DNA of 64,000 nt from Haloarchaeobius salinus (GTDB lineage Archaea; Halobacteriota; Halobacteria; Halobacteriales; Natrialbaceae). The notes beneath the pieces were generated by a model. The model had not been told where the DNA came from and ran no database searches. It worked only from the letters and a program-made list of their open reading frames with translations. Positions 7,046-38,099 of the stretch are shown one piece after another (positions within the stretch are counted from its first letter, which is position 1; each line of letters begins with the position of its first letter). A program made the translations under genes and the position numbers. The DNA is taken from positions 558,001-622,000 of the forward strand of contig NZ_JANHAU010000002.1 in the NCBI RefSeq assembly GCF_024464185.1, in the 5' to 3' direction.

Positions 7046-7325
7046 CGCCAGAAAGCGGCGCGCGGCTGGCCATCCCACCACCGGCGCGCGCTGGCGAGAC
7101 TGTGCGAGCGCAGCGAGCACGTCGAGCCGCCAGCGCGCGAGGGATGAGCACCGGAGGGAGCGCTAGCGACCGAGGAGCGCAGTCGGCTGGGGAGGTACGA
7201 GGTGCGGTGGCGGTCGGGTGGGGCTGAAAGGGGCGAGGTTCTCGGCGAACCCGGCCGAAGCAAGCACCGCAGGGACGAGGAGCGCAGCGAGGCTCGGGAG
7301 CCGAGAACCTCGGGGCTTTCTGGCG
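7046..7325. repeat. 280-base structured element with 11-bp terminal inverted repeats and nested hairpins
   Basis: Terminal inverted repeats CGCCAGAAAGC (7046-7056) and GCTTTCTGGCG (7315-7325) match perfectly. Inside are a 12-bp stem at 7085-7096/7128-7139 (CGCGCGCTGGCG and its complement) and a 13-bp stem at 7234-7246/7300-7312 (CGAGGTTCTCGGC and its complement). Smaller hairpins sit within these: GTGC/GCAC around the loop GAGCGCAGCGA at 7102-7120, and CGAG/CTCG around a second copy of the same core at 7276-7296. A further CCGA/TCGG hairpin lies near 7170-7186. No target-site duplication is visible. It could be a MITE-like remnant or a structured RNA; the sequence alone does not decide. Confidence 0.7.
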
Positions 7326-7424
7326 GTTGTCGGCACCAGCGAGTCCCACGCCTGCAGGGTCTCTCCATGTGTCCGCACTCACAGCCACAATCACTCACAG
7401 ACGCGGTCGCACACCTTCAAGGGG

Positions 7425-7432
7425 TTTATAAT
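7425..7432 (+). promoter_or_regulatory. TATA box of proS
   Basis: TTTATAAT centred about 27 bases before the proS ATG, so the transcript should be leaderless or nearly so. Confidence 0.75.
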
Positions 7433-7455: not shown

Positions 7456-8946
7456 ATGAGTGGAGAACAGGAGCTCGGCATCACCGAGTCCAAGGAGTAC
7501 AACACGGGCGAGTGGTACGCGGAGGTCGTCCAGAAGGCGAAGCTGGCGGACTACGCGCCGATGGGCGGCTTCATCGTCACCCGACCGCGGGGCTACGAGC
7601 TGTGGGAGCGGCTGCAGGACCACCTCGACGGCTGGTTCAAGGAGACGGGCGTCACGAACGCCTACTTCCCGCTGTTCATCCCGGAGAGCTACCTGGAGCA
7701 GGAGAAGGACATCGTCGAGGGGTTCGACCCGGAGGTCGCGTGGGTGACCCACGGCGGGCACGAGGAGCTGGAGGAGCGCCTCGCCGTCCGCCCGACGAGC
7801 GAGTCCATCATCACGCCCTTCATCAGTGACTGGGTGCGCAGCCACCGCGACCTGCCGATGCGGCTGAACCAGTGGGCGAGCGTCGTGCGCTGGGAGGCGA
7901 CGGAGACGAAGCCGTTCTTCCGGACGAAGGAGTTCCTCTGGCAGGAGGGCCACACCGCCCACGCGACGGACGAGGGTGCGTGGGACGAGGTGATGACCCG
8001 TCTCGACCAGTACGCGAAGCTGTACGAGGACGTGCTGGCGATTCCGGTGCTGCGTGGCTGCAAGCCCGACCACGACAAGTTCCCCGGCGCGGACACGACC
8101 ACGTCGGTCGAGGCGCTGATGCCCGACGGGAAGTCGGTGCAGGGCGGCACCAGCCACCACCTCGGCCAGTCGTTCGCGAAGGCGTACGACGTGACGTTCA
8201 CCGACGAGGACGAGGACGAGCAGACCGCGTACACGACCTCGTGGGGGCTGTCGTGGCGGGCGCTCGGCGCGCTCATCATGACGCACTCGGACGACCAGGG
8301 GCTCGTGCTGCCGCCCAAACTCGCCCCCGAGCAGGTCGTCATCGTCCCCATCTACAACGAGGACAACGAGGAGGAGGTCATGCAGTACTCCTCGGAGATC
8401 GCCGCGGAGCTGCAGGAGGCGGGCGTCCGGGTCCACCTCGACGACCGGGACGAGCGCAACCCCGGCTTCAAGTTCAACGAGTGGGAGCTCAACGGCGTGC
8501 CCGTCCGGTTCGAGATCGGCGGGTACGAGGTCGAGGACGAGGAGGTGACGGTGGTCCACCGACCGGACGGCGAGGAGGTCGTCGAGGACCGTGCAGACAT
8601 CGCCGAGGCCGTCGACGACCACCTCGATGCGGTGTTCGACAAGCTGTACGCCGCGGCGGAGGAGAACCTCGTCGAGAACGTCCGCGCGGTCGAGGACGTC
8701 AACGAGATCCTCGGTACCATCGGCCAGCACGGTGGCTACGTGAAGACGCCGTGGTGCGGTGACGAGGCCTGCGAGGAGGCGGTGAAGGAGAAGGTCCACG
8801 CCGAGATCGTGCTCGTGCCGATGGACGACGAGGACGTGCCGGAGGCCCAGCTCGACGACGGCGAGGCGCTCGAACTCGAGCACGACGAGTGCACGATGTG
8901 CGGCGAGCCGGCCGAGGAGGTCGCGTACTTCGCGAAGACGTACTGA
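7456..8946 (+). CDS. proS: Prolyl-tRNA synthetase, archaeal/eukaryotic type
   Basis: A 496-residue class II aminoacyl-tRNA synthetase that charges tRNA-Pro with proline. Motif 1 lies near MNAYFPLFIPESYL (residues about 63-77), motif 2 is VVRWEATETKPFFRTKEFLWQEGHT (about residues 140-165), and the proline pocket includes VRPTSES. The anticodon-binding domain follows (VVIVPIYNEDNEEEV onward). The archaeal-type C-terminal zinc-like domain is present, with cysteines in PWCGDEACEEA and ECTMCGEP, ending in the characteristic ...AKTY. It lacks the bacterial editing insert, as expected for this subtype. A TATA box 27 bases upstream points to a leaderless mRNA. The gene appears to be transcribed alone. 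Confidence 0.97.
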   Translation: MSGEQELGITESKEYNTGEWYAEVVQKAKLADYAPMGGFIVTRPRGYELWERLQDHLDGWFKETGVTNAYFPLFIPESYLEQEKDIVEGFDPEVAWVTHGGHEELEERLAVRPTSESIITPFISDWVRSHRDLPMRLNQWASVVRWEATETKPFFRTKEFLWQEGHTAHATDEGAWDEVMTRLDQYAKLYEDVLAIPVLRGCKPDHDKFPGADTTTSVEALMPDGKSVQGGTSHHLGQSFAKAYDVTFTDEDEDEQTAYTTSWGLSWRALGALIMTHSDDQGLVLPPKLAPEQVVIVPIYNEDNEEEVMQYSSEIAAELQEAGVRVHLDDRDERNPGFKFNEWELNGVPVRFEIGGYEVEDEEVTVVHRPDGEEVVEDRADIAEAVDDHLDAVFDKLYAAAEENLVENVRAVEDVNEILGTIGQHGGYVKTPWCGDEACEEAVKEKVHAEIVLVPMDDEDVPEAQLDDGEALELEHDECTMCGEPAEEVAYFAKTY

Positions 8947-37201: not shown

Positions 37202-37639
37202 ATGCCTATCTACGCAGTCAAGACGACCGCGAGCCAGGAGCGAACGGTCGCCGACATGATCATGAACCGCGAGGAGGAGACCATCCACGCCGCGCTCGCA
37301 CCCGACTCGCTGACGAGCTACGTGATGGTCGAGGCGGACGACTACAACATCATCGAGCGCGTGCTCGAGGACATCCCGCACGCCCGCAGCGTCATCCCGG
37401 GGGAGTCCGACATCACGGAGGTCGAGCACTTCCTCTCCCCGAAGCCGGACGTGGAGGGCATCGCGGAGGGCGACATCGTCGAGCTCATCGCCGGCCCGTT
37501 CAAGGGCGAGAAGGCGCAGGTCCAGCGCATCGACGAGGGCAAGGACCAGGTCACCGTCGAGCTGTACGAAGCGACGGTTCCGATCCCCGTCACCGTGCGT
37601 GGCGACCAGATCCGGGTCCTGGACAGCGAGGAGCGGTGA
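37202..37639 (+). CDS. spt5: Transcription elongation factor Spt5 (archaeal NusG)
   Basis: A 145-residue elongation factor that closes the RNA polymerase clamp with Spt4. Residues 1-82 form the NGN domain ([18 protein letters not shown], and [28 protein letters not shown]), and residues 90-143 the KOW domain ([35 protein letters not shown]). Its last codons and stop lie inside the left arm of an 11-bp hairpin (37627-37660), an unusual arrangement. It forms the ftsZ1-secE-spt5 cluster, with only three bases between secE and spt5. Confidence 0.95.
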
Positions 37640-37758
37640 GCGCCAGCGAACCGCTCCTCGATACGCGAACGGGGAGCCTGCGACCCGTGAGCAGCGAGGA
37701 ACGCTGAGCGCCAGCGAAGCGTTCCTCGGATAGTCGAGCGGGGAACGGAGTGACCCGC
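37627..37758. repeat. Tandem hairpin array across the spt5 stop codon
   Basis: Two 34-base hairpins have perfect 11-bp stems and an identical 12-base loop GAGCGCCAGCGA. Hairpin one is at 37627-37660 (arm CGAGGAGCGGT), hairpin two at 37695-37728 (arm CGAGGAACGCT). Their stems differ at two positions and both changes are compensated on the other arm. Between and after them are smaller hairpins, ACGGG/CCCGT with loop GAGCCTGCGA (37669-37688) and GCGGG/CCCGC with loop GAACGGAGTGA (37738-37758). So the array is two imperfect units of about 68 bases. The first stem includes the spt5 TGA (37637-37639). Confidence 0.85.
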
Positions 37759-38099
37759 GAGACGCCGAAGAGCGCTGACGGGCTCATGATGCTTCTGCCG
37801 GAGGACGACACGAGACCGGGAGAGCCATCGCTCCGAGCCGACGTCCTCGTGAGACGCGGTGGCGATGATACGGGAATGGCGTACCCAGTACGGGTGTGAC
37901 GGACTGGTCGGGGGCCGCGCGAAGCGGCGCTGCAGTGCAAAGGGTCCGAACCCTCCTGAGTCGCGTCTCCCCCCAACCACGACTCAGGTACCGGGATGGA
38001 GCGCGCGGGCGGAAAAAGACCGAATGCCCTACTAGTTAGGCCCGGGTGCTGCTCGGCACGGGGCTGTCGCTCTGGAGGGCGCTCACGGAGCAACCGCCG
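37640..38099. other. 460-base gene-free region after spt5
   Basis: Apart from the hairpin array, I see no convincing protein gene. Reading frames on both strands are Ser/Arg/Pro-rich, unlike acidic haloarchaeal proteins. The middle (37801-37988) contains several hairpins. The right end (38000-38099) is the 3' flank of the leftward zinc-finger gene and has a low-GC CCTACTAGTTAGG patch near 38029-38041. Confidence 0.6.
37801..37988. other. Candidate structured RNA or terminator cluster
   Basis: Stems read off the sequence: GAGGACG/CGTCCTC (37801-37807 with 37842-37848) enclosing GGAG/CTCC (37819-37834); ACCC/GGGT (37883-37895); GCCGC/GCGGC (37914-37928); AGGGT/ACCCT with tetraloop CCGA (37941-37954); CCTGAGTCG/CGACTCAGG (37955-37963 with 37980-37988), whose loop has a C6 run. 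The spacing is compact and the strand is unknown. It does not match the conserved cores of SRP RNA or RNase P RNA that I can recall, nor a tRNA. Confidence 0.45.

Follow-up and report, generated by a model that had tools for sequence, protein, structure and literature searches.

The loops reported upstream of proS and at spt5 of Haloarchaeobius salinus are folded GNA/GNNA mini-hairpins with tandem G·A mismatches, which corrects their reading in the first-pass annotation as unpaired recognition loops. The core at 7102–7120 appears to cap one hairpin of a palindromic repeat of about 250 bp whose family is present in most haloarchaea. The repeat occurs in dispersed copies and shows covariation, GNA is the specific form of its tips, and its sites are polymorphic between sister species. 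A mobile palindromic element with a functional single-strand DNA fold of one polarity reconciles most of the data, and we rate the chance that this reading is correct as about even. Positions refer to the window, which is the whole 64,000-nucleotide stretch of DNA that was analysed. The features on the proS side are as follows.

7083–7332, + strand: copy of the composite non-coding repeat (~250 bp), in the divergent intergenic region preceding proS
about 7083–7214, + strand: unit A, defined from a 30-copy alignment
7085–7139, + strand: unit A hairpin enclosing the reported motif, arms CGCGCGCTGGCG (7085–7096) and CGCCAGCGCGCG (7128–7139), 100% complementary
7102–7120, + strand: reported hairpin GTGC-GA-GC-GCA-GC-GA-GCAC, with a 4-bp stem, tandem G·A, a 2-bp GC stem and a GCA triloop
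7158–7169, + strand: GAGCGCTAGCGA, a 2-bp GG/CC stem bearing the same cap, here with GCTA as its GNNA turn
7215–7332, + strand: unit B, covarying hairpin, main arms 7226–7246 and 7300–7320
7264–7283, + strand: unit B tip, GCACC/GGAGC pairs with the GNA turn G-[GGA]-C (7272–7276); alignment columns 50–71
7280–7290, + strand: second motif copy GAGCGCAGCGA, formed by the 3´ strand of the unit B tip and a conserved internal loop; its S base covaries with the upstream GSACC
7312–7328, + strand: tail GGGGCTTTCTGGCGGTT, elsewhere one of the two inverted ends of a head-to-head pair
7425–7432, + strand: proS TATA-like box TTTATAAT, located after the repeat and before the gene
7456–8946, + strand: proS (prolyl-tRNA synthetase, as named in the first-pass annotation), a gene call

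The proS-side motif, GAGCG-C-AGCGA, parses as GA-GC-[GCA]-GC-GA, and GAGCG-CC-AGCGA as GA-GC-[GCCA]-GC-GA; each has a GC/GC stem, two G·A mismatches at its base and, at its tip, a turn of the GNA or GNNA type, respectively, so the C/CC difference noticed earlier between the two loops is the difference between GNA and GNNA. Folding programs return ((((..((...))..)))) for 7102–7120 with both DNA and RNA parameters, and the 4-bp stem GTGC/GCAC proposed for the 7106–7116 copy is confirmed. The 19-mer is nothing special as DNA in the energy models (z of +0.28 for DNA and -1.04 for RNA), and the high stability of the cap refers to published measurements on shorter oligonucleotides, not to these models. 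In the account of mini-hairpin DNA given in PMC4686876, the extraordinarily stable mini-hairpins of Hirao's group have a GNA or GNNA loop, in which N can be any base, together with two or more G-C pairs, and GCGAAGC shows a Tm of 78°C. Both loop forms found here fit exactly the d(GCGNAGC) and GNNA mini-hairpins as described there (Hirao, Yoshizawa; PMC4686876): the loops are GCA at 7110–7112 and GCCA in spt5, and the closing pairs are GC/GC (7108–7109 with 7113–7114), which are replaced by AC/GT or a single pair in some relatives. In contrast to the published mini-hairpins, those described here carry two G·A mismatches and a long outer stem, and lie within natural genomic repeats. As DNA, GTGCGAGCGCAGCGAGCAC would fold with G·A and GNA pairs. 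A K-turn was considered and dropped because there is no 3-nt bulge.

Both proS-side copies of GAGCGCAGCGA lie where they had been placed, at 7106–7116 and 7280–7290 (+), and the spt5 motif GAGCGCCAGCGA is located at 37638–37649 and 37706–37717 (+). Genome counts were made on sampled stretches amounting to 862 kb, which is 22% of the genome. In this sample, GAGCGNAGCGA occurs in 28–29 intergenic copies (0.271 per kb) and in 4 copies inside genes (0.0053 per kb), an intergenic density about 50 times the genic one. The frequency thus exceeds that expected from base composition, as the 28 intergenic copies compare with 0.63 expected (maximum 3) in Markov-shuffled intergenic DNA; likewise, GAGCGNNAGCGA was observed 13 times against 1.1 expected. 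Within the window alone, GAGCGCAGCGA with one mismatch allowed shows a mild excess (11 versus 5.1). Class-wide counts of the motif pattern are rough, as the reversed control pattern overlaps the motif when N is A. The suggested enrichment at gene 3´ ends was not found: the nearest gene end is 5´ for 16 copies and 3´ for 12, and the intergenic borders available for comparison number 389 (5´) to 209 (3´). A stem around the copies is present in part, since 5 of the 28 exact 11-mers have at least 4 bp of outer stem, but 17 have 0–1 bp. This is partly because copies such as 7280–7290 form the 3´ strand of a hairpin and not a loop. The latter copy had been read as a loop with its own stem; in an alignment of 23 copies, covariation between its third base and a base further upstream (columns 51/70: C-G 15, G-C 7) identifies it as the 3´ strand of a larger hairpin.

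Sites homologous to 7102–7120 were collected from the own genome, sister species and a few other genera (42 in total). Across these sites, the outer stems (gtgc/gcac, gcgc/gcgc, gcc/ggc, cgc/gcg, gccgtc/gacggc) and the inner stems (gc/gc, ac/gt, cc/gg) change with matching changes in the partner strand and N varies, while the GA/GA plus GNA/GNNA cap is mostly kept. The cap is GNA or GNNA in 29 sites, including six with a bare GNA on a stem, and the other 13 fall outside these classes. The idea of a conserved loop on changing stems therefore holds in that the constant core is real and general, but the loop is folded and a bare GNA can replace the core. A homology-free scan for intergenic hairpins of the form stem-XY-s-XNY-s'-ZW-stem returned 94, among which GA/GA is the commonest flank class (15), together with its reverse-complement class TC/TC (also 15); the next class has 3. 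The combination of GA/GA with GNA occurs 11 times in intergenic DNA versus 2 inside genes, and such hairpins were found in 6 of the 10 relatives sampled. The covariation of 18 short hairpins was set aside as evidence, because these had been chosen as perfect hairpins and covary by construction.

The two proS-side motif copies belong to one dispersed repeat. A 256-bp query gives 64 blastn matches in the own genome (E≤0.01), 30 copies align as unit A plus unit B, and a unit B model returns 18–30 matches per search; model R1 matches 7215–7332 at 133.5 bits. The alternative offered earlier, a repeat that spreads while its arms drift, comes closer than the recognition loop, although the arms change in matched pairs rather than freely. 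Because the TATA-like box of proS lies downstream of the repeat, typical archaeal promoter spacing would place the repeat probably outside the proS mRNA. Among 31 genomes of the family, the proS protein shows 74–97% identity. At loci L009, L010, L014, L017, L020 and L021, unit A is directly preceded by a palindrome of type AAAGTTTACAATATTTGTAAACTTT, which might act as a promoter or operator or mark the end of an element. A T-box-like aminoacyl-tRNA-synthetase switch was dropped, since four such genes but also many others carry the repeat, which lies upstream of the promoter.

Unit B combines fixed loops with matched, changing arms. Thirty pairs are supported, and covariation reaches 0.499, whereas shuffling of the 3´ letters gives 0.123 and sliding of the partners no more than 0.096; 125 cells are changed on both sides versus 35. 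In a set of 115 unit B tips, 111 GNA triloop hairpins were counted against 11.9 after shuffling; many of those with GCA share one conserved CCGCAGG context, but GAA and GGA occur on many different stems. In contrast, other triloops do not exceed expectation (79 versus 78.7), GNRA tetraloops number 2 versus 7.5, and TTCG is absent. A nested two-hairpin module, GTGGTTCGAG...TCGTCATCACGA...TCGAACGAC, lies inside unit B at L010 and L303; its tips read GAA/GGA in one genus but show the complement, TTC, in another, which looks like an inversion of the hairpin centres.

A covariance model of unit B finds matches in 108 of 121 genomes and 26 of 29 genera of the family, and in 166 of 194 sampled haloarchaeal genomes, representing 58 of 66 genera and ten families, with E-values that are rough owing to a shortened calibration. 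Carriers include Haloarcula, Halomicroarcula, Halorussus, Halovenus and Haloarchaeobius. Twenty-one records of haloarchaeal plasmids also match, of which 18 have no annotated feature at the site, 2 have a hypothetical protein, and 1 is an unannotated record. The phage records searched contain no unit B match, Rfam 15 gives no match above the gathering score, and no earlier description of the repeat was found in literature covering part of the field.

In Haloarcula and others, two unit Bs are arranged head to head, 20–28 bp apart, with the tails outward and with the inverted ends AACAGCCAGAAAGCCCC...GGGGCTTTCTGGCTGTT or the variant GGGGCTTTCGTGGTGTT. These copies have terminal inverted repeats, as expected of MITEs, and the copy in the window has one such end only. 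Outside the unit B tail, a 45-bp unit (the 17-bp tail plus 28 bp) is sometimes arranged in tandem: four identical units occupy L150:1495–1692, and tandems also occur in L153, L154, L156, L160, L042 and L089. The 28-mers differ outside L150 and often end in GCTAGC in Haloarcula. The 45-bp repeats and GTGGGACTGAAAG were not taken as CRISPR-like, because the spacers repeat identically in L150. At the thyA locus of two genera (L258 and L210), the unit Bs look swapped left to right relative to the flanking genes, which suggests an inversion of the whole element; L225 is the sole case seen of two unit Bs tail to tail.

At the proS site, the repeat is present in four of six species of the genus and absent from two. 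Where the site is occupied, the flanks are conserved while the arms and some of the interior are entirely different, and in two species the 5´ halves are identical and the 3´ parts differ. Two sister genomes also differ at other sites, which carry the repeat in one and are empty or reduced to a remnant in the other. A clean target duplication was not seen in the occupied/empty comparisons, and no transposase-bearing relative was found in 862 kb of the own genome or in the 5–8-kb loci of other genera; for this reason, we infer rather than observe transposition in trans. Like the MITEs and SMRs of Haloquadratum (PMC3119063), the repeat is short, non-coding and multi-copy, and it has inverted ends when head to head. 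Unlike them, its copies are about 75–85% identical, occur class-wide and have no parent transposon that was found, and the composite of 250–290 bp exceeds the 80–110 bp of SMRs (PMC3119063). The IS605-related PATEs are likewise non-coding, with palindromes near the ends and presumed single-strand mobility, but they lack the terminal inverted repeats that the head-to-head copies have (PMC3119063).

The connection proposed between proS and spt5 consists in a shared structural cap, as the spt5 hairpins are not copies of the proS-side repeat. Both spt5 copies have 11-bp stems with unrelated arms, in agreement with the earlier observation on the stems. Three hairpins are found there.

37627–37660, + strand: spt5 stop-codon hairpin, 11-bp stem, GA-GC-GCCA-GC-GA cap
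37695–37728, + strand: duplicate of the spt5 hairpin; the cap is unchanged and the arms (AACGCT/AGCGTT) differ
37738–37758, + strand: GCGGG-GA-AC-GGA-GT-GA-CCCGC, same hairpin class, inner stem AC/GT

Of 33 spt5 genes scored, 18 have a hairpin made up of the last codons, the stop codon and the bases after it. A GNNA turn, which usually holds the TA of the stop codon, is present in 13 of the 33, and six of these 13 add tandem GA. The spt5 hairpin is therefore the gene's own stop-codon hairpin and an independent user of the same cap. Several species and genera carry, downstream of the gene, a duplicate of its 3´ end with the stop-codon segment (loci L167–L199; the own copy lies within 37624–37760). 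An A+T-rich inverted element, CTAAATTTTGCAAGGAG...CGACGCAGTAAAATTTAG, is seen downstream of spt5 in L198, L180, L195, L193 and L184; in L198, about 50 bp of the spt5 3´ end recur after it as a second copy. Several genera of the family also share a hairpin, CAGTCAGCGCGG...CGCGCTGAATAT, downstream of spt5 (L173, L179, L181, L188, L193).

A structured RNA, either a small RNA or a cis-regulatory transcript upstream of housekeeping genes, would account for the RNA-grade covariation of unit B, and we consider it rather unlikely. In 22 of the 27 copies scored here, the unit B tail faces a co-directional gene start at a distance of about 135 bp, and the downstream genes include proS, hisS, pheS, gatB, pelota, rpoL and rpS12. 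In two other genera, G·T/T·G pairs outnumber A·C/C·A pairs by 39 cells to 7, or by 28 to 7 minus one pair, and the ratio across genera is 48 to 14. This excess is a strand asymmetry, which fits RNA or one specific DNA strand and not a symmetric cruciform; as an argument for RNA it is somewhat weakened because the covariance-model alignment leans toward wobble pairs. In the own genus, the corresponding numbers are 7 and 12, without a wobble excess. G·U pairs make up only about 2–3% of cells. GNRA and UUCG turns are typical of RNA, and RNA families do not usually show a GNA/GNNA preference. The repeat shares covarying helices and constant internal loops with the structured RNA families of Rfam, but differs from them in its GNA tips and few wobble pairs as well as in matching none of them, and the position of the repeat, ahead of the proS TATA-like box, also speaks against a transcript.

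A double-stranded DNA site that is bound by a protein, such as a chromatin, insulator or promoter-upstream site, and is retained at core genes seems to us quite unlikely. The same genes recur downstream of the repeat in different genera (gatB, Dim2/KH, NAD kinase, thyA and HAD, as well as aldo-keto reductase), compared with one to three shared pairs expected from random placement by a rough estimate, and the spacing to gene starts is near 100 bp in several genera. This recurrence hints at function, but it could result either from a regulatory role or from long persistence in short, stable intergenic gaps. Against a duplex site, sister species differ by gains and losses of the repeat, and the conserved internal loops suit a folded single strand.

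The repeat might instead be a mutational by-product, in which template switching of the replication fork at palindromes rewrites the arms and the cap persists as the nucleator of the switch. Nested and swapped hairpins, deletions of the unit B core between the arms, the mosaic copies at the proS site and the confinement of the hairpins to intergenic DNA are consistent with such a process; long constant internal loops together with inverted ends in 58 genera exceed what a local mutation process would produce, and we consider this explanation quite unlikely. Chance similarity in G+C-rich DNA, with which the mild one-mismatch excess in the window would agree, is refuted for practical purposes by the intergenic excess of GAGCGNAGCGA and by the covariation.

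For the mobile element with a folded single strand, copies would spread among intergenic sites using enzymes supplied in trans, and what is maintained would be the fold of one strand as single-stranded DNA, at replication or transposition. The preference of the tips for GNA/GNNA points to DNA as the relevant molecule. The cap may be fixed because it folds fast and stably, and the arms would be free to change provided that complementarity stays.

The repeat family is unannotated where checked yet widespread, so that haloarchaeal searches for regulatory motifs or structured RNAs are confounded by it. A further generalization, which we regard as unlikely, is that haloarchaea carry class-wide elements of fixed-polarity folded single-stranded DNA that have GNA/GNNA caps and RNA-like compensatory evolution, lie upstream of translation and information genes and are served by a dedicated binding protein. 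GNA/GNNA mini-hairpins are known mainly from biophysics and aptamer design; the recurrence of the same caps throughout the class, on stems that evolve in matched pairs, makes a natural role of folded single-stranded DNA testable.
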